Below are positions 40,023-58,971 of a stretch of 64,000 bases of DNA, one piece after another. Origin of the DNA: an uncultured Acidimicrobiales bacterium (GTDB lineage: Bacteria > Actinomycetota > Acidimicrobiia > Acidimicrobiales > Aldehydirespiratoraceae). Location of the stretch: positions 1,894,277 to 1,958,276 of the forward strand of contig CATQHS010000001.1 of the NCBI GenBank assembly GCA_958296055.1, given 5' to 3'. Positions within the stretch are counted from its first letter, which is position 1. Every line of letters begins with the position of its first letter. Position numbers and translations under genes: made by a program. The notes under the pieces are model-generated. The model saw nothing but the letters and a program-made list of their open reading frames with translations, had not been told where the DNA came from and searched no databases.

Positions 40023-40664
40023 TCAGGGAGACCAAACCTCGACGATGGCGTCGGTTGAGGTGACGGTGGCCAGCAGCGAGATGGTGTTGCGCATGACCGC
40101 TCGTCCGTAGTCGACCGGCAGCCCGACCACAGCGTCGTCGGGCACGACTGCCTGGTAGCCGAGGTCCACCGCCGAGAGGACCAGCCCGGCGATCCCGACG
40201 TTCAGCGACACCCCCACGGCCACCACCGTGGTGACCCCGCAGTTGCGCAACACCTGGTCCAAGGCGGTGGACGTGAACGGGGTCAGCCCGTGGAGGCGGG
40301 AGATCACGATGTCGGCGGGGGCGGCTTCGAGCTCACCGACAAGCTCGGCGCCCGGTGCCCCGGCGGCCAGGGCCTCGGAGTTGTGGTCCAAGGCGACGGC
40401 CAGCAGCTTGCAGTTGCGGGCCGACCCGGCCCCATCGGCCCGGAATTGCGCCGTGCAGTGCACGACCCGGGCTCCGGCCGTCCGGGCCGCTCGGCAGATT
40501 CGGGCCGCGTTGGCCACCGTCTGGGTTTCGGCTGCGGCCTCGGCCAGCCCGCCCATGGTGGCCAGATCCCCCACCACCGCCCGCTGCAGCTCCATGGTGA
40601 GCACCGCGGTGCGGGTAGGGTCGAGCAGATCGCTTAGACCGGCCCCGGCTCGCTCCCCGCTCAT
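40023..40664 (-). CDS. isochorismatase-fold protein, catalytic triad apparently lost
   Basis: About 213 residues from the ATG at 40664. The cysteine-hydrolase fold is recognisable: VLTMELQRAVVGD at the first strand, RVVHCTAQFR, a VISRLHGLTPFTSTALDQVLRNCG helix and VVAVGVSLNVGIAGLVLSAVDLGY. In active members the first strand ends in a catalytic Asp (IDMQ), the middle segment carries a catalytic Lys and the nucleophilic Cys sits in GVxTxxCV. Here these read as Glu, Arg and Gly. It is therefore probably not an amidase. Its promoter faces that of a small membrane protein. The 17-bp gap to the ligase gene is convergent. Confidence 0.78.
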   Translation of the reverse strand: MSGERAGAGLSDLLDPTRTAVLTMELQRAVVGDLATMGGLAEAAAETQTVANAARICRAARTAGARVVHCTAQFRADGAGSARNCKLLAVALDHNSEALAAGAPGAELVGELEAAPADIVISRLHGLTPFTSTALDQVLRNCGVTTVVAVGVSLNVGIAGLVLSAVDLGYQAVVPDDAVVGLPVDYGRAVMRNTISLLATVTSTDAIVEVWSP

Positions 40665-40671
40665 GGCCGTT

Positions 40672-40681
40672 GGTCTAGACT
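40672..40681. promoter_or_regulatory. overlapping divergent -10 elements around TCTAGA
   Basis: On the plus strand TAGACT (40676-40681) ends 6 bases before the ATG at 40688. On the minus strand TAGACC (40677-40672) ends 7 bases before the ATG at 40664. The two -10 hexamers overlap in the palindrome TCTAGA, and both genes would be leaderless, so only one polymerase could open this site at a time. Confidence 0.5.
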
Positions 40682-40687
40682 GCCCGG

Positions 40688-40879
40688 ATGGCCGGCGCAA
40701 TCGCCATGGTGATCCTGCTGGTGATCGTGTTCCCGGTGCTTGTCATCCTGTCCGGTGCCGTCGTGGCCGCGCTGCTGGGGCATTTCTTGAGAACCAGCGT
40801 CGATGAGGCCAACGTCGACGCCGACGGCGCCCCCAACGAGCACCTCGCCCTCTCCCGGTCCGGGCGACCTCAGAACTGA
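40688..40879 (+). CDS. small single-pass membrane protein
   Basis: A 63-residue protein with one strongly hydrophobic helix (IAMVILLVIVFPVLVILSGAVVAALLG) and a short acidic tail (SVDEANVDADGAPNE). Short proteins with this helix and an RxxVDE tail occur widely in actinobacteria; no function is known to me. Leaderless ATG, divergent from the isochorismatase-like gene and convergent with the Fe-S/molybdopterin fusion gene. Confidence 0.65.
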   Translation: MAGAIAMVILLVIVFPVLVILSGAVVAALLGHFLRTSVDEANVDADGAPNEHLALSRSGRPQN

Positions 40880-40917
40880 CGACCCCAGCGGCCGGTACGG
40901 GCCTGTCTGGTCCGGTC

Positions 40918-42486
40918 TCATCCGGTGGGCCACGCCGGGGGCAGGCCCCGGTCGATCCAGACGGCGGCGGCCACCGCCGCGAACACGGCGTCGCTGCCGT
41001 TCACCGGCTCGGCGTCGTCGGCTACGACCGTCACCTCCACTGGCGGCATGGCCGAGGCCCCGAGGATGCCGAAGGACCGCACGGTCAGGTCGTGCACGGT
41101 CCCGGCCTCGTCCACGCTCAGCGACTCGTTGGTCACCCACGACAGCGCCATGTGGGCCGCGCCGGTGCAGTACGAGCGCAGCACCGTCTCATCTAGGGGC
41201 TGGCCGGCCCGCACTGACACCGCCAGCGACCCGTTCGGGTTAACCGTGGCCTCGGCCCGGCCCCCGGCGGGGGCGACGACCGCCACCGGTCCGACCGCTC
41301 CCCGGGCCGCAGCCAGCAGCACCGCCGCCTCCACCCATCCCGCGCCCCGGACGGCGCAGGAGGTGGGCGGCCCGGCCACGTCCACTTCTTCCACCTCCAA
41401 GCCGGGGGCGTAGCCTTTGATGACCTCGGCGATGCCCGGGGTGCGGGCCACCCGCACCACCCCGGTTCCGTCGGCCCGCACCCCGGCGCCGACGGGCGGG
41501 CGCTTGGGGCCGAGCGCGGCGGCGTCGGGCCTCGACCACAGCGCTCGCACCGGCCGCTGGTGCTCCTCGGCCAGCTTGCGGGCGGCGACCGCCACCGGCG
41601 AGTTCTGCTTACCGCCGAAGGCGCCCCCGTTGCCCAGCGGCGACGCCGGTTCGCCCCCCGGTTCGCACCAGGCCGCGTCAGTCTCCAGGTAGCCCGGCTC
41701 CACCCAGCTCGTGGACAAGGTGACGTTCCAGTGGCCCGGCGGCGGGGCCAACGGAGGCTCCCAGACCGCGGTGGCCCGGCGGCCCACGCCGCCGCCGGCC
41801 GCGGCCCGGGCCTCGGCCACCGTGGCGCCGGTGACCCAGCCCGACCCGTCGACGGCGGGCACGGCCACCAGCGCCCCGGCTGGGGCGGTGTCGTCGGCGA
41901 ACCCGCCCCGGCCCGCGGCCACATGCGGCCCAGTGGCCTGCGGAGACCGACCCTCGATGGCGGCCCGCCGGTCGGCGGGGCTGCGGTCGGCCTTTTGGCT
42001 TGGCTCTGGGTTGGGCCCGGTGTCGGGGTAGGCGCACCAGGCGTCGAGGATCGGCTGCCATCCGGTGCAGCGGCACAGATGCGCGGCCAGCGCCCGGGCG
42101 GCGGCGTTCCGGTCGCCGTGATCGGTACCGGCTGCGTCCAGCGCAGCGAACCGGCAGATGATCCCGGGCGTGCAGAACCCGCACTGGCTGGCCCCGGCGT
42201 CGGCGAAGGCCCGGGTCCAGCGGTCGCGGATGTCGGGGTCGAGCCCGTCCAGCGTTGTGATCCGCCGCCCCCGCACGCGCCGGGCCGGGGTCACGCAAGC
42301 CACCCGAGCCTGCCCGTCCACCAGCACCGTGCAACATCCGCACTGGCCCTGGGGGCTGCAGCCGTCCTTCACCGACCTGATCCGGGCCTGTTCCCTCACC
42401 ACGTCCAGCAAAGTGGCCCGCGCGTCGTCGACGGTGACGGCCCTGCCGTCGACCACCAGATCAAACCCAGCCTGCGAACCGCCCAT
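40918..42486 (-). CDS. fused [2Fe-2S] and shortened molybdopterin-binding protein (mini xanthine-dehydrogenase type)
   Basis: About 522 residues. Residues 1-160 form a full CoxS/XdhC-like module. A plant-type cluster loop (CSPQGQCGCC, plus a later Cys) and the helical cluster domain ASQCGFCTPG ... HLCRCTGWQ are both present. After a disordered linker come fragments of the molybdopterin subunit: GGAFGGKQNSPVAVAARKLAEEHQ and CAVRGAGWVEA. SFGILGASAMPPVEVTVV follows near the end, over only about 340 residues where 750-800 is normal. No FAD subunit is adjacent. TAGCCT ends 6 bases before ATG 42486, so the start is well supported. Either a genuine compact enzyme or a decayed one. Confidence 0.8.
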   Translation of the reverse strand: MGGSQAGFDLVVDGRAVTVDDARATLLDVVREQARIRSVKDGCSPQGQCGCCTVLVDGQARVACVTPARRVRGRRITTLDGLDPDIRDRWTRAFADAGASQCGFCTPGIICRFAALDAAGTDHGDRNAAARALAAHLCRCTGWQPILDAWCAYPDTGPNPEPSQKADRSPADRRAAIEGRSPQATGPHVAAGRGGFADDTAPAGALVAVPAVDGSGWVTGATVAEARAAAGGGVGRRATAVWEPPLAPPPGHWNVTLSTSWVEPGYLETDAAWCEPGGEPASPLGNGGAFGGKQNSPVAVAARKLAEEHQRPVRALWSRPDAAALGPKRPPVGAGVRADGTGVVRVARTPGIAEVIKGYAPGLEVEEVDVAGPPTSCAVRGAGWVEAAVLLAAARGAVGPVAVVAPAGGRAEATVNPNGSLAVSVRAGQPLDETVLRSYCTGAAHMALSWVTNESLSVDEAGTVHDLTVRSFGILGASAMPPVEVTVVADDAEPVNGSDAVFAAVAAAVWIDRGLPPAWPTG

Positions 42487-42610
42487 CACCGCAGGCTACG
42501 AGCCATAGTTGCGGCTCATGAGCCGTCAGGTTGTCTCATTTGTGAGAACTACACCGCATCCTCGACCTCGGCTCGGCCTTTCCGGTTACGACCGAGGCCA
42601 GCTCCAGCCT

Positions 42611-42662
42611 TTACTCTAAATATTTAACAGTAGTTTAGAGTAGCGATAAAACCCCAGGTCAG
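42611..42662. repeat. left copy of 46-bp direct repeat with AGTAG motifs
   Basis: TAAATATTTAACAGTAG begins a 46-bp segment (42617-42662) that recurs 1560 bp away at 44177-44222 with four mismatches. Within and beside it are the motifs TTAACAGTAG (42624-42633), TTTAGAGTAG (42634-42643) and the inverse TTACTCTAAA (42611-42620). The segment is AT-rich in a GC-rich genome. Confidence 0.8.
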
Positions 42663-42697
42663 ACCATAATTACAAGCATGTAGTTGTGATAGAGTCT

Positions 42698-44122
42698 CTA
42701 ATTGTTGAGTTTCCAGTAAGCGCGCGGATCGTTGGATGACTTACCCACCCGAGAAATAAGGCCCTCCAACTGCAAGACCCGTAGCTGCCGGAGCACAACC
42801 GGGCGCGATCGTCCTGTGGCCTCTGCTAAATCGCCGGTGCTGAGCCTGTCCCCTGAGCGGATCAGTCGCATGAGTTCTCGGGCCGGACGCGGCAACCGGT
42901 CGTTGAGATCCCGATCCACCGACGTCCAAGAGAGCGTGAGCCGGACACTGCCCGATGTCTGGTGGTATTCGGGATCCACAAGGCCGGCGAGTTTCATCTC
43001 GTCGAACATGCGCCGGATGCCTTCTCCGCGCTCCAGTCCGAAGTCGAGTTCCGCACAGGCTCTGGCAATACGGGGATTACGGGCAAAGCGTCTGACCTGA
43101 AGTGGGTCGCTGAGATCGAAGATTCCCGGAAACCGACCTGGGCTCTCGATCTCCAGCCGGTCGTCAAAAATTTCCGCCCGGATGTGGTCGCCGCTGTGGC
43201 TGTAGGACCGATGCACGACCGCGTTGACCAGCCCTTCGAGCCAGGCGTTCAAAGGCAGCGGCGCGATCGGTTCGAAGCGGCCGCGGTCGGTGAGGGCGCG
43301 CCGGGTCGGCAGTTGGTTGAGTACCACTTCGCGGGCTTCGTCGATCATGCGGGGGATGGGCCCTTCGACTCTGACATCGGACAGGAGTTGCTGGCGGGCG
43401 CCGACGCCGCGTTCCGATCCGCGGTAGCGCAGCACCCGCACTAATGCCTGAGGGAGCCATTGCTGGGGCTCAGGGGCCAACAGCAGCACTGCGGCGATGG
43501 TGACTTGGCCGTCGCGATTGAGCAGCCCGCGGGCGCTGAGCAGTCGCTCAGGGTCGGGATGGGAAAGCTGGTCGGCGTAGTCGCTGAGAAGGCCGCGGTC
43601 GAGGTCATCAAGTACTGCCCGGTCGGCCGGGGTGCTCTCGAAGCTCGCTTGCCCCTTGTCGTAGAGCAGTTCCTGTCGCTGCTGGAAGTTCAGCTTGCGG
43701 TTCTGGTCGCCGACGCGCAGGTAGACCTCGTCCCGGTTGGTGGCGTGGACCTTGTCAGGGGTCGACTCGACCCTGATCACGACAAGCCGATCCGGGCCAC
43801 CCTTGGCGGTGATGCAGTCGATGAGCTGGAACTGGCACCGCACGGGCGGGTTGGTGAAATCGACGGCGGCCCGCCGCCAGTCCGTCTGTCGTTTGATTCC
43901 AACTGAACCGATGCCTTCAACTGCGCCGTCGTCGCTGAGCCCGATGATGATCGCACCCCCCTCGGCGTTGGCGAAGCCCACGAGCAAGTCGGCGATGGTT
44001 TGCCCGTTCACGCCGGCGCTCTTGCGCTCGAGCCACTGGTCCTCGGGGAAGGCGGCCAACGCCTCGCCGACCTCGGCCGGGCTGAGTTGCAGTGCTTGCT
44101 CCACAGAGCCGACGGTGGCCAT
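42698..44122 (-). CDS. AlbA_2 (Schlafen-type) / HATPase_c_4 / winged-helix protein
   Basis: A 474-residue protein. Residues about 25-125 match AlbA_2 (QWLERKSAG ... LVGFANAEGGAIIIGLSDDG). A GHKL-like ATPase region lies at about 290-350 (LEGLVNAVVHRSYSHSGDH, DDRLEIESPG). A C-terminal winged helix occupies about 410-470 (STGDLAEATGRSRPVVLRQLRVLQLEGLI). Such proteins are putative ATP-dependent DNA-binding regulators and often occur singly in defence or mobile regions. The gene stands alone between 46-bp direct repeats and has a lower GC content than neighbours. GGAG precedes the ATG. Confidence 0.85.
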   Translation of the reverse strand: MATVGSVEQALQLSPAEVGEALAAFPEDQWLERKSAGVNGQTIADLLVGFANAEGGAIIIGLSDDGAVEGIGSVGIKRQTDWRRAAVDFTNPPVRCQFQLIDCITAKGGPDRLVVIRVESTPDKVHATNRDEVYLRVGDQNRKLNFQQRQELLYDKGQASFESTPADRAVLDDLDRGLLSDYADQLSHPDPERLLSARGLLNRDGQVTIAAVLLLAPEPQQWLPQALVRVLRYRGSERGVGARQQLLSDVRVEGPIPRMIDEAREVVLNQLPTRRALTDRGRFEPIAPLPLNAWLEGLVNAVVHRSYSHSGDHIRAEIFDDRLEIESPGRFPGIFDLSDPLQVRRFARNPRIARACAELDFGLERGEGIRRMFDEMKLAGLVDPEYHQTSGSVRLTLSWTSVDRDLNDRLPRPARELMRLIRSGDRLSTGDLAEATGRSRPVVLRQLRVLQLEGLISRVGKSSNDPRAYWKLNN

Positions 44123-44293: not shown

Positions 44294-44614
44294 TTAGCTG
44301 AAGCTTTGGCCGCAGCCGCAGGTGCGCTGGGCGTTGGGGTTGTCGATCGAGAAACCGGCGTCTTGGAGGCTGTTCTTGTAGTCGAGGGTGGCCCCTTCGA
44401 GCAGCATGGCCGAGGACTGATCGACCACCACCTCGACCGCACCGAAAGTGGCCTTGCGGTCGCCGTCGCCGAACTCGCTGTCGAAGTACATCTCGTAGGA
44501 GAAGCCGGAGCAGCCGCCGGGGCGCACCGCCACCCGCAGAGCGAGGCCCTCCTCGTTCTCGGTCTCGATGAGCTCGGAGACCTTGCTGGCGGCGTTCTCG
44601 GTGAGGGTGATCAC
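44294..44614 (-). CDS. erpA: HesB/IscA-family iron-sulfur cluster insertion protein
   Basis: A 106-residue A-type Fe-S carrier. The three conserved cysteines are in GGCSGFSYEM and CGCGQSF at the C-terminus. It delivers clusters to apo-proteins. A GTG start with GGAGG 6 bases upstream. It is divergent from the mrp gene, another Fe-S carrier, and the two probably serve the same client enzymes, including the many Fe-S and radical-SAM proteins of this window. Confidence 0.9.
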   Translation of the reverse strand: MITLTENAASKVSELIETENEEGLALRVAVRPGGCSGFSYEMYFDSEFGDGDRKATFGAVEVVVDQSSAMLLEGATLDYKNSLQDAGFSIDNPNAQRTCGCGQSFS

Positions 44615-44731: not shown

Positions 44732-45898
44732 GTGACGGCCGTCCCGCCCACCGCGGAGGAGGTGACCCGGCTCCTCGAGGGCGTCATCGACCCGGAACTG
44801 GGCAGCAACATCGTCGAGCTGGGCATGGCCCGGGGGGTGGCCGTCGAACCGGCCGGGCGGGTGAGGGTGGAGATCGCCCTCACCACCGCGGGCTGCCCGC
44901 TGCGGGCCCAGATCCAGCGCGATGTCAAGACCCGGCTGGAGTCGATGCCGGGGGTGACCGGCGTGAAGATCGCCTGGGCCGAGCTCAACCAGGAGGAGAA
45001 GGCGGCGGCCATGGCCAAAGCCCGATGGAACGCGTCCGGCAACGCCCCGGCCACCTCCATCCCCCCCGCCACCAAGGTGCTGATGATCGCCAGCGGCAAG
45101 GGCGGGGTCGGCAAGTCGTCGGTCACCGTCAACCTGGCCGCGGCCCTGGCCGACGAGGGGTACCGGGTCGGGGTGATGGACGCCGACATCTGGGGGTTCT
45201 CGGTGCCTCGGATGCTGGGGGTGGAGGGCGAGCTCCGCTCGCTCGACGGCAAGATCGTCCCGCTGACCCGCCGGATCGGCCCCGGCCGGGTGGATGTGGT
45301 GTCGATGGGGTTCCTGGTCGACCGGGAGGACTCGGCGTTGATGTGGCGGGGATTCATGCTCAGCCGGGCTGTGCAGCACTTCTGCGAGGATGTCCGCTGG
45401 AGCGACGACCTCGACTACCTGCTCATCGACATGCCCCCCGGCACCGGCGACGTCCAGATGGGACTGGCCCGCCGCCTCCCCCGGGCCGAGATGATCGTGG
45501 TCACCACCCCGGCCCTGGCCGCCCAAAAGGTGGCGGCCCGGGTGGTGGACATGGGCCGCAAGAACTACCTACGGGTGGTGGGCGTGATCGAGAACATGTC
45601 CGAGCTGGTGACCCCCGCCGGCGAGCGCTACGCCGTGTTCGGCACCGGGGGCGGGGCCCAGTTGGCCGAGGAGGTGGGCGCAGTCCTGCTGGGCCGGATT
45701 CCGCTAGAGGCGGCCGTGTCCACCGGCGCCGATCGGGGCGAGCCCGCCGTCTTGGGCGACGGCCCCGCGGCCGAGGCCCTTCGGGCCGTGGCCCGCAAGC
45801 TGGCCTCCGAGCACGTGCCCCCGGTGCAGATGGCCGGGTGCAGCGCCCGCATCCTCGACGCGGCCCTAGCCTCCCTCGACGCCGCCGCGGATCAGTAG
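44732..45898 (+). CDS. mrp: Mrp/ApbC-family P-loop ATPase, iron-sulfur carrier
   Basis: A 388-residue protein. The N-terminal MIP18/DUF59 domain (about 1-85, EGVIDPELGSNIVELGM) is followed by a deviant Walker A ASGKGGVGKSS near residue 120. It also has DADIWGFSVPRML and LLIDMPPGTGDVQMGLARR. It binds and transfers [4Fe-4S] clusters in the cytosol. The CxxC typical of the central domain is not obvious, although a Cys occurs near the C-terminus (MAGCSARI). Leaderless GTG start. Divergent from erpA. Confidence 0.92.
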   Translation: MTAVPPTAEEVTRLLEGVIDPELGSNIVELGMARGVAVEPAGRVRVEIALTTAGCPLRAQIQRDVKTRLESMPGVTGVKIAWAELNQEEKAAAMAKARWNASGNAPATSIPPATKVLMIASGKGGVGKSSVTVNLAAALADEGYRVGVMDADIWGFSVPRMLGVEGELRSLDGKIVPLTRRIGPGRVDVVSMGFLVDREDSALMWRGFMLSRAVQHFCEDVRWSDDLDYLLIDMPPGTGDVQMGLARRLPRAEMIVVTTPALAAQKVAARVVDMGRKNYLRVVGVIENMSELVTPAGERYAVFGTGGGAQLAEEVGAVLLGRIPLEAAVSTGADRGEPAVLGDGPAAEALRAVARKLASEHVPPVQMAGCSARILDAALASLDAAADQ

Positions 45899-55698: not shown

Positions 55699-56190
55699 GT
55701 GACCGCCGGCCCCATTCACCAGTGGGACTGCGGGGAGTACCTGATCTCCACCGACCCGGGCCGCTTCGACGTCGACGCCTTCTACGGCTTCATGAGCGAC
55801 GCCTATTGGGCCCGGGACCGCAGTCGAGAGGCGACCGCGGCGGCGGTGGCCAACAGCGTGGTGTTCGGCCTGTATGGGCCCGACGGGGCCATGGTGGGGT
55901 CGGCCCGGGCCATCACCGACTGCGCCACCTTCGGCTGGGTGTGCGACGTTTATGTCGCCGCGCCGCACCGGGGCCGGGGACTGGGCAAGGCGCTGGTGGC
56001 AGCGGTGTGCGAGCACCCCGACTTGGCGGGCGTGAGGCGGCTGACGCTGATCACCCTGGACGCCCACGGGCTGTATGAGGCCCGGGGGTTCACTCCGCTG
56101 CAGGCCCCCGAACGGTGGATGGAGCTGCGCCGCCCGCCGCCGTCGGAGGTTTTGCCAGCCCCGCCGCCTCTGTCTCCGCCGCCGACCTGA
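55699..56190 (+). CDS. GNAT family N-acetyltransferase
   Basis: A 163-residue acetyl-CoA-dependent acetyltransferase. Acetyl-CoA binding motif A is VCDVYVAAPHRGRGLGKALVAAV. GLYEARGFTPL is the C-terminal motif B. The GTG follows the tRNA gene by 51 bases. The Pro-rich tail (last about 15 residues) overlaps the 3' end of the convergent molybdopterin gene by 101 bases. Substrate unknown. Confidence 0.88.
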   Translation: MTAGPIHQWDCGEYLISTDPGRFDVDAFYGFMSDAYWARDRSREATAAAVANSVVFGLYGPDGAMVGSARAITDCATFGWVCDVYVAAPHRGRGLGKALVAAVCEHPDLAGVRRLTLITLDAHGLYEARGFTPLQAPERWMELRRPPPSEVLPAPPPLSPPPT

Positions 56191-58456
56191 GCAGGGCCCA
56201 CACCCGGGCCGGGGTCAGCGGCAGCTCGGTCGGCCAGACCCCGACCGCCCGCCCCACCGCGGCGGCCACCGCGGCTGGCACTGGGTTGAGCGCCCCCTCG
56301 CCCGCCCCCTTGGCCCCGTAGGGACCGGCCCCGTCGCCCCGCTCGGCCAGCACCGACGTGATCCGCCGGGGCATGTCGGTGAACCGGGGCACCCGGTACT
56401 CGATGAGGTTGGGGTTGGTGAGCTGCTCGCCCTCGTAGACCATCTCCTCCCACAGGGCGATGCCGAGGCCCTGGGTGGCCGCCCCCAGATCCTGGCCCTT
56501 CACCAGATCCGGCTCGATGGCGTGCCCCACATCGCCCACCGTCACCAGGTGCTCGACGGTCACCTCGCCGGTGGTCTCGTCCACCGCCACCTCCACCCCC
56601 ACCGCGCCGATCTCCCAGAACGGGGGCAAAAGGGCGGTCTCGCCGTGGCCCCGGACGACGCCGATCCCCACCGCCTCGCCCGCGTCGGCCCCGAACCACT
56701 CCCGGATCACCGCGGCCGGGGCCAAGTCGGCGCCGGCCACCTGGATCGACCCGCCGCCGCTTGTCGCCTCGTCGGGGTCGATCCCGGCCGATTCGGCCGC
56801 CATGGCCCGCAGCTTCCGCCACAGATCCTCGCAGGCGGCCTTCACCGCCAAGCCCACCACGGTGGTGGTGCGGCTGGCGCCGGTGGTCCACTCGAAGGGG
56901 GTGTAGAGGGTGTCGCTTTGGCCCACGGCCACGGCCGCGGCCGCCACGCCCATCTGGCGGGCGACGATCTGGGCCAAGGCGGTGCGGCTGCCCTGGCCCA
57001 TCTCGGTGCTGCTGGTGAGCAGGGTGACCGACCCGTCGGCGTGCATCCTCACCTGGGCGGTGGAAATGGGCGAGGCCCCGGCGTCGCTGGCGGTGACGGC
57101 CACCGCCCGGCCCCGCCGCACCCCCGGCTCGTGGCCGCGGCCGGCGTGCCGGTCCAGCTCGGCGGCCACCGCGTCGAGGTCGGCGGTCAGATCGGCGTCG
57201 AGGCCCCGCTTGCCGGAGATGACGGTTCCGCCCGGTTCCAGCAGGTTGCGGCGGCGCAGCTCTGTCGGGTCGATCCCCAGCCGGTCGGCGGCCATGTCCA
57301 TGTTCATCTCGCCGGCCAGGGCCCCCTGGGGAGCGCCGAACCCCCGATACGACGAGGCCGGGGTGGTGTTGGTGTACACGGCTGTGCCCCGAACTCGCAG
57401 GTTGGGCACCCGGTAGGGGCCGAAGCACCGGTTGACGCTCTTGGTCAGCACCAGAGGGCTGTTGTCGGCGTAGGCCCCGGTGTCGAAGACGATGTCGATG
57501 GCCCGGGCGGTGATCCGGCCCTCAGAATCGAACCCGGTCCGCACGGTCACGTGCGCGCCGTCCGCTCGGGTGGTGTGCATGGCCCCCTCCACGTCGGTGT
57601 CCACCCGCACCGGCCGCCCGGTGGCCCACGACGCGGCCGCGGCCAGCGGCTCCAGCTTGGTGTAGGACTTCGACCCGTAGCCCCCGCCGATGTAAGGGAC
57701 CTCCACCCGCACCGCGGCCAAAGGCAGCGAGAAGATCCGGGCCAGCTCCTTGCGCACCATCAGCGGATGCTGGGCGGTGGACACGACGTGCAGGCCGCCG
57801 GGCTGCCAGTCGGCCAGGGCGTTGTAGGTCTCCATGGCGTAGCCGTAGACCAGCGGGAAAGCGGCGGAGGTCTCCACCACCGCCTCGGCCGCGGCCAGGG
57901 CCGCGTCCACGTCCCCCCAGCCCAGCTCGGCCCGGTGGGCCGCGTTGTCGGTGTCGGCCTTCGGCTTCACGCCCAGAAATCCCCGCTCCGGCCCGGCGTA
58001 GGACTCCTCATGGATGAGCGTCTCGGAGGCCAGCGCGTCGGCCGCGGTGGTCAGCGCCTCCAAGTCCTCGTAGTCCACCCACACCCGCTCGGCCGCGTCG
58101 GCCGCCTCATGGGGGGTTTCGGCCACCACCGCGGCCACCGGCTCCCCGTAGTAGCGGACCTTGTCTTCGGCCAGGATGGGGTGGTCGCAGACGATGTGGC
58201 CGAACCGACGGCCCAGGTCGCCGAGGTCGTCGGCGGTTATCACCCCGATCACCCCCGGTGCCCTGCGGGCTTCGTCGGCGTTGATGGCGACGATGCAGGC
58301 GTGGGCCCGGTCGGCCCTCACCACCGCGGCGTGGGCCATGTTCGCCATAGCGGCGTCGCTGGCGTAGCGGGCCCGGCCCGTGACCTTGTCCCAGGCGTCC
58401 CGGCGGGGGGGCCTGGCCGGGTCCGGGACGGGTGCGGCCTCGGGCTGGCCGGTCAC
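56090..58456 (-). CDS. molybdenum hydroxylase large subunit (molybdopterin-binding, xanthine-dehydrogenase family)
   Basis: A 788-residue subunit carrying the Moco active site. Signatures are DKVTGRARYASD, IGGGYGSK, SSYRGFGAPQ, SSTEMGQGSRTALAQI and AKGAGEGAL with the catalytic Glu. It hydroxylates a carbon next to nitrogen in a heterocycle, or an aldehyde. The start GTG overlaps the Fe-S subunit stop. The last about 25 residues (AGLAKPPTAAGG...) are beyond the usual end and overlap the GNAT gene on the other strand. Last gene of the seven-gene operon. Confidence 0.93.
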   Translation of the reverse strand: MTGQPEAAPVPDPARPPRRDAWDKVTGRARYASDAAMANMAHAAVVRADRAHACIVAINADEARRAPGVIGVITADDLGDLGRRFGHIVCDHPILAEDKVRYYGEPVAAVVAETPHEAADAAERVWVDYEDLEALTTAADALASETLIHEESYAGPERGFLGVKPKADTDNAAHRAELGWGDVDAALAAAEAVVETSAAFPLVYGYAMETYNALADWQPGGLHVVSTAQHPLMVRKELARIFSLPLAAVRVEVPYIGGGYGSKSYTKLEPLAAAASWATGRPVRVDTDVEGAMHTTRADGAHVTVRTGFDSEGRITARAIDIVFDTGAYADNSPLVLTKSVNRCFGPYRVPNLRVRGTAVYTNTTPASSYRGFGAPQGALAGEMNMDMAADRLGIDPTELRRRNLLEPGGTVISGKRGLDADLTADLDAVAAELDRHAGRGHEPGVRRGRAVAVTASDAGASPISTAQVRMHADGSVTLLTSSTEMGQGSRTALAQIVARQMGVAAAAVAVGQSDTLYTPFEWTTGASRTTTVVGLAVKAACEDLWRKLRAMAAESAGIDPDEATSGGGSIQVAGADLAPAAVIREWFGADAGEAVGIGVVRGHGETALLPPFWEIGAVGVEVAVDETTGEVTVEHLVTVGDVGHAIEPDLVKGQDLGAATQGLGIALWEEMVYEGEQLTNPNLIEYRVPRFTDMPRRITSVLAERGDGAGPYGAKGAGEGALNPVPAAVAAAVGRAVGVWPTELPLTPARVWALLRSAAETEAAGLAKPPTAAGGAAPSTVRGPAAE

Positions 58457-58971
58457 GGGGCCGTCCGCTCGGCGGCCAGTATGACGGCCGTCTCGATGGG
58501 CGCGTAGCCGGTGCAGCGGCACAGGTTGCCGTCCAGCCACTCCCGCACCGCGGCCCGGTCGGGTCGGGGGTCGGCGGCCAGCAGGGCGACGGTCATCATG
58601 ACGAACCCGGGGGTGCAGTAGCCGCACTGCAGGGCGTTGGCCGCCGCGAACGCCTCCTGCACCGGGTGCAGCTCCCGGCCCTGGGCCAGGCCTTCGACGG
58701 TGACCACCTCGGTCCCATCGAGGTCGACGGCCAGCAGGCAGCACGAGCTGGCCGGTGCACCGTCCACCAGCACGGTGCAGGCCCCGCACACCTGGATGCC
58801 GCAGCTCACCTTGGTGCCGGTGAGCCCGAGCTGGTCCCGCAGCAGCTCGGCGGCGGTGAGCCGCACCGGGGCCAGCGTCTCGACCCGCCGCCCGTTCAGC
58901 CTGAAAGCGATCACCACCGAGGTCGCCGCCGGGGCCGGGCCCTCCCCCTCCGGCGGCCGGGGTTCGGTCAC
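58453..58971 (-). CDS. molybdenum hydroxylase small subunit ([2Fe-2S])
   Basis: A 172-residue subunit with two [2Fe-2S] clusters. The N-terminal plant-type cluster is CGIQVCGACTVLVDG plus a later Cys. The C-terminal helical cluster has QCGYCTPGFVMM and NLCRCTGY. It passes electrons from Moco to FAD. GTGA overlaps on both sides link it to the FAD and Moco genes. Confidence 0.95.
   Translation of the reverse strand: MTEPRPPEGEGPAPAATSVVIAFRLNGRRVETLAPVRLTAAELLRDQLGLTGTKVSCGIQVCGACTVLVDGAPASSCCLLAVDLDGTEVVTVEGLAQGRELHPVQEAFAAANALQCGYCTPGFVMMTVALLAADPRPDRAAVREWLDGNLCRCTGYAPIETAVILAAERTAP

Follow-up and report, generated by a model that had tools for sequence, protein, structure and literature searches.

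The 64,000-nucleotide window analysed here, from an uncultured Acidimicrobiales bacterium, carries a gene whose product looks like a molybdenum hydroxylase in miniature. We asked whether this protein still uses the molybdenum cofactor (Moco), whether its gene is decaying, or whether an old enzyme has been given another job.

A single polypeptide with two [2Fe-2S] sites and no FAD domain

The ORF listing, Pfam, orthologues and an AlphaFold model identified a small xanthine-oxidase-fold protein encoded at 40918..42489 (minus strand), hereafter the mini protein. The frame of its gene is intact over 523 codons from a GTG at 42489 (522 residues from the ATG one codon on, at 42486) and encodes a single polypeptide. 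Pfam recognised Fer2, Fer2_2 and a partial MoCoBD_1 domain at residues 288-335 and found no FAD domain, so that ORF and domains agree with the original prediction of an intact two-cluster [2Fe-2S] module fused to a Moco region of reduced length, without FAD. A weak MoCoBD_1 match was present in all 79 aligned relatives and a MoCoBD_2 match in 60 of them. The two-cluster module, delimited by Pfam and conservation, extends over residues ~9-156 (42022..42465, minus strand), with cluster ligands C44, C50, C53, C65 and C103, C106, C139, C141. Both cysteine sets of the xanthine oxidase family, those of Fer2 and of Fer2_2, are thus present as predicted sites. The eight cysteines were invariant across 150 distinct mini sequences, with the exception of one row gapped at C44, and the same alignment showed invariant F291, G292, K294, K329, R330, H446 and R471. 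The clear promoter that had also been claimed was not recovered: a consensus scan of 40600-42800 returned no sigma-70-like site, with a consensus that may differ from actinobacterial promoters.

Elsewhere in the window, ~14 kb from the mini gene, a complete Moco subunit of 796 aa (hammerhead, MoCoBD_1, MoCoBD_2) is encoded at 56093-58480 (minus strand). With a total of 16 MoCoBD_1 stretches, the genome is rich in molybdenum hydroxylases.

The Moco-subunit fold is kept and the cofactor-contacting segments are missing

The AlphaFold model of the full mini protein, built from a 79-row alignment, reached a pLDDT of 93.5 and a pTM of 0.93. VIA-align superposed 488 of its 523 residues on the D. gigas aldehyde oxidoreductase MOP (1sij, 907 aa; Z 23.8, rmsd 3.2 A) and 482 on rat xanthine oxidoreductase (Z 25.0). 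The shortened Moco-subunit region, placed by superposition and profile alignment at residues 171-523 (40921..41979, minus strand), had a pLDDT of 92.9 when modelled separately. It superposed end to end on complete Moco subunits of 700-800 residues, with ~323-333 of its 353 residues placed (Z 16.6-24.5), 328 of them on 4zoh_A (Z 24.5) and 323 on 1sij (Z 18.0). By superposition of the model, the mini protein thus has the Moco-subunit fold of the xanthine oxidase family, and because residues 171-523 cover complete Moco subunits over their whole length we regard it as a condensed whole fold and not as a broken piece.

Segments of the GQGVHT and GQTTGSRGT types contact molybdopterin in the xanthine oxidase family. 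In a global alignment to the full-length paralogues described below, the largest gap in the mini protein covered the paralogue GQGVHT and GQTTGSRGT, and the paralogue KGVGEIGLVPT was reduced to NGSDAV followed by a gap. The GQG-type and TTGSRGT-type Moco-binding motifs are therefore absent, GGAFGGK being the only one kept. Also absent is the GVGE glutamate, which corresponds to Glu869 of MOP and takes part in catalysis (PMC10223205). As to whether a Moco pocket with the catalytic glutamate is retained, a check proposed with the original prediction, the alignment indicates that the loop was lost and the model that the fold core was kept. At position 500, near the old glutamate site by alignment, Asp was found in 141 and Glu in 2 of 150 mini sequences. 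Since GGAFGGK and this Asp are conserved, some pocket may, judging from the sequences, still bind a ligand.

Relation to full-length single-chain hydroxylases

The genome of the window also encodes an 886-aa full-length homologue (L169) whose alignment with MOP runs over residues 25-875. Such MOP-like paralogues of Acidimicrobiia (886 aa in L169, ~860-960 aa in relatives) are 42-50% identical to the mini protein in the Fe-S part and, unlike it, have complete MoCoBD_1, MoCoBD_2 and hammerhead domains and the GVGE motif. An hhalign comparison of the mini protein with this paralogue family was colinear (probability 100, E 2.6e-64). In a quick tree of the Fe-S domain, the mini sequences formed one branch apart from the full-length proteins, which is modest evidence, with an SH-aLRT of 84 and one outgroup row.

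Like the mini protein, the D. gigas enzyme (MOP/AOR; 1sij, 1vlb) is a single chain in which two [2Fe-2S] domains are followed by a Moco domain, with no FAD; as a FAD-less single-chain representative of the xanthine oxidase family it is described in PMC10223205. The mini protein differs from MOP in its length (523 versus 907 residues), in lacking the Moco-contacting segments and the Glu869 loop, and in being kept in genomes without detectable Moco synthesis. Its ancestor was probably a full-length, MOP-like single-chain molybdenum hydroxylase without FAD, from which internal deletions would have taken out the Moco-binding segments and the catalytic-glutamate loop, the [2Fe-2S] sites and the fold core staying in place.

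The mini gene is conserved within Acidimicrobiia under purifying selection

Some match to the mini protein was obtained in 58 of 61 genomes comprising its own and relatives, a few of these matches being to the Fe-S part alone, and most families of the order had matches over the full length, with unchanged boundaries and 55-74% identity. In a sample of the phylum, 12 of 296 genomes matched at E < 1e-60, all 12 of them from class Acidimicrobiia, and in a sample of that class the count was 81 of 247 at E < 1e-70. A scan of genome contigs gave 472 relatives, and the best 80 of these 472 carried mostly Acidimicrobiia or related actinobacterial titles. The search for homologues with the same fused, shortened architecture thus ended in the original prediction's favour, the architecture recurring across the class. 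Because only about one third of the class genomes carry it, the mini gene is not indispensable.

In 25 close mini pairs, dN/dS was ~0.06-0.23 overall and ~0.07-0.21 when the Moco remnant was taken separately. Both halves of the protein are under purifying selection, and the remnant, given its own ratio, is constrained and no ballast; neither outcome that would have overturned the original prediction was seen, be it relaxed selection on this copy beside full-length relatives or a lack of orthologues sharing its domain boundaries. That the gene is a decaying relic of a molybdenum hydroxylase, a reading to which its length below the family norm lends some colour, is very hard to reconcile with an open frame and the same boundaries in well over 100 genomes, with the invariant cysteines and with the low dN/dS of both halves. 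Class-wide conservation, intact frames and low dN/dS rule out a pseudogene, and the earlier argument against simple decay is upheld by the class-wide orthologues, their shared boundaries and purifying selection.

The mini gene is kept in genomes without detectable Moco synthesis

With regard to molybdenum INDEPENDENCE, reading of the listings for the class sample gave 10 of 81 carrier genomes without MoaA and, by the same count, ~71 of 81 with it. Six carriers (G268, G426, G430, G441, G547 and G560; 94-97% complete) were examined further. MoaA, MoaE and MoeA were not detected in any of the six by searches that were positive in other genomes, and the six contained no MoCoBD_1 protein besides, at most, the mini protein itself. 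Each had a single Molydop_binding match, which reads by sequence as NuoG; NuoG carries no Moco, and this lone match was set aside as a candidate for another Moco enzyme. The eight cluster cysteines were intact in all six, and the Asp near the old catalytic site was replaced in four. Because the gene is kept in these genomes without detectable MoaA, MoaE, MoeA or a molybdoenzyme, the mini protein apparently works there without Moco, and the gene does not follow Moco synthesis. Between Moco-less copies, dN/dS was mostly saturated at synonymous sites, the pair G430/G441 alone being informative, in direction. These two genomes, of one genus and with all four markers absent, have copies that are 72% identical, with a dN of 0.22 and a near-saturated dS of ~2.4, consistent with selection continuing after the loss of Moco. 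Loss of molybdenum function in the mini protein is thus well supported, and the description of a miniature molybdenum hydroxylase is not supported, as two Moco motifs and the glutamate loop are missing and the gene persists without detectable Moco synthesis.

MoaC was kept in four of the six genomes (G268, G426, G547 and G560), either as an orphan MoaC in another role or as a sign of recent loss.

The mini gene is an optional member of an Mrp-ErpA-RidA block

Genes within 5 kb of the mini gene were compared at 101 loci, a few genomes being represented twice. The conserved order was Mrp, pointing away, followed by ErpA, the mini gene and RidA on the other strand. An ErpA/IscA-type iron-sulfur carrier gene (44294..44614, minus strand, in the window) lay upstream on the same strand at 88 loci, an Mrp/ApbC-type iron-sulfur carrier ATPase gene (44732..45898, plus strand) was the divergent neighbour at 81, and RidA followed on the same strand at 78. 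At 21 loci a SufR-like regulator was also found nearby, by a weak match below the cut-off. ErpA and the mini gene were separated by 25-50 bases where no gene lay between them, and the mini gene and RidA often by tens of bases; with such short gaps, it is plausible that the mini gene is co-transcribed with ErpA and/or RidA in many genomes. The window itself departs from this arrangement. RidA is absent, and ErpA and the mini gene are parted by an AlbA_2/Schlafen and HATPase_c_4 gene (42698..44122, minus strand) that was seen, among the 101 loci, in the window only.

The mini gene is adjacent to the Fe-S biogenesis genes ErpA and Mrp at most loci, and the same block also occurs in genomes that lack it: at 12 Mrp-anchored loci from such genomes the Mrp-ErpA pair was present in all 12 and RidA was nearby in 10. 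The mini gene is therefore an optional member of a wider Mrp-ErpA-RidA block. Since the block exists without it, synteny is weakened as a clue to function, and the neighbourhood may have been inherited as it is, with no functional link behind it.

The order Mrp, ErpA, RidA, OmpR-type regulator, glutamine synthetase, in which ErpA and RidA share one strand and the other three genes point the opposite way, was conserved across Acidimicrobiia (L041-L168, L213-L224).

Proposed role of the mini protein

The evidence on fold, motifs and Moco synthesis makes it very likely that the mini protein is a pseudo-molybdenum-hydroxylase that has two [2Fe-2S] cluster sites and lacks Moco. The explanation that we favour as a whole, and hold to be reasonably probable, is that it descends from a Moco hydroxylase and now passes electrons or clusters through its [2Fe-2S] sites. 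The protein would be soluble and, carrying two [2Fe-2S] clusters, would hand electrons or clusters to partners, the dead Moco domain would act as a rigid docking body, and many genomes would produce the protein jointly with ErpA, RidA or both; occupancy of the clusters, the partners and the role itself are here what we infer. Only tentatively do we suggest, by analogy, that in the setting of ErpA and RidA it delivers Fe-S clusters or supplies electrons. More speculative still is the idea that a cofactor-stripped xanthine-oxidase-type family was recruited beside ErpA, Mrp and RidA into this task, class-wide, as a bacterial counterpart in kind of Nar1 made from a different metalloenzyme.

Two other readings have to be weighed against an electron- or cluster-passing protein. 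A minimal hydroxylase that remains active, binding Moco wherever a lineage can make it, would account for the complete xanthine oxidase fold core, for GGAFGGK and the nearly invariant Asp near the old glutamate site, and for the presence of MoaA in most carriers; we nevertheless judge it unlikely, since two Moco-contacting motifs and the catalytic glutamate loop are missing and six carriers with every cluster cysteine lack MoaA, MoaE, MoeA and other molybdenum hydroxylases, four of them with the Asp replaced. The mini protein could instead sense redox state, iron or oxygen, or serve as a structural subunit for electron transfer in a complex, in either case unrelated to Fe-S biogenesis and next to ErpA and RidA by mere inheritance; we give this clearly less than even credence. 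It fits the occurrence of the Mrp-ErpA-RidA block without the mini gene, and also the fact that the genes conserved next in order encode an OmpR-type regulator and glutamine synthetases, a pattern suggestive of general synteny. Against it, the mini gene holds its place and strand immediately ahead of RidA in many families whose other neighbours vary.

An Fe-S protein derived in this way would have precedents in kind. NuoG of complex I is a molybdoenzyme-derived subunit that keeps Fe-S clusters and has no Moco; unlike the mini protein, it has a DMSO-reductase-type fold and is part of a known complex. Nar1 is hydrogenase-like, lacks the hydrogenase cofactor, keeps its Fe-S clusters and has been proposed as a trafficking factor (PMC12621388). 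This eukaryotic [FeFe]-hydrogenase-like CIA factor (Nar1/IOP1) and the mini protein would share a metalloenzyme fold minus its catalytic cofactor, a likeness of working only, and the Mrp/ApbC neighbour of the mini gene is of the Nbp35 type. The two folds are unrelated, and an Fe-S trafficking role of the mini protein is proposed by analogy. In the open-access literature searched, we found no xanthine-oxidase-fold family reported to have lost Moco and to have been conserved class-wide afterwards, and nothing relevant on XDH in Acidimicrobiia. If our explanation is correct, the mini protein joins NuoG and Nar1 as the third metalloenzyme lineage in which the catalytic metal was lost and the Fe-S clusters stayed, and in this class an old enzyme seems to have taken on a new job. 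Genes of this type are easily misannotated as xanthine dehydrogenase or aldehyde oxidase, and their presence or absence in an otherwise unchanged block makes their function directly testable.

The isochorismatase-fold gene and the 63-aa membrane protein

In the window the mini gene adjoins an isochorismatase-fold gene assigned by Pfam (40023..40700, minus strand), and a 63-aa membrane protein is encoded between the two on the opposite strand (40688..40879, plus strand). The protein was correctly seen as a pseudoenzyme, it appears, for by eye the usual Asp, Lys and Cys of the family are seemingly replaced by E, R and G. That the three adjacent genes form a module is another matter. The isochorismatase-fold gene adjoins the mini gene in the window alone (1 of 101 loci), an ORF similar to the 63-aa one accompanies 11 of the 101 loci, and in relatives the isochorismatase homologues are located elsewhere in the genome. 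With the 63-aa ORF also on the opposite strand, the module is scarcely credible despite the adjacency of the three genes in the window, and as a functional unit it is rejected on synteny; the neighbours conserved across loci are ErpA, Mrp and RidA instead.

Isochorismatase-fold homologues, 38-62% identical, were found in 21 of 40 relatives and possibly form a conserved pseudoenzyme family of their own. A small membrane protein like the 63-aa ORF of the window followed RidA on the same strand at about nine loci (L056, L055, L051, L057 and others).
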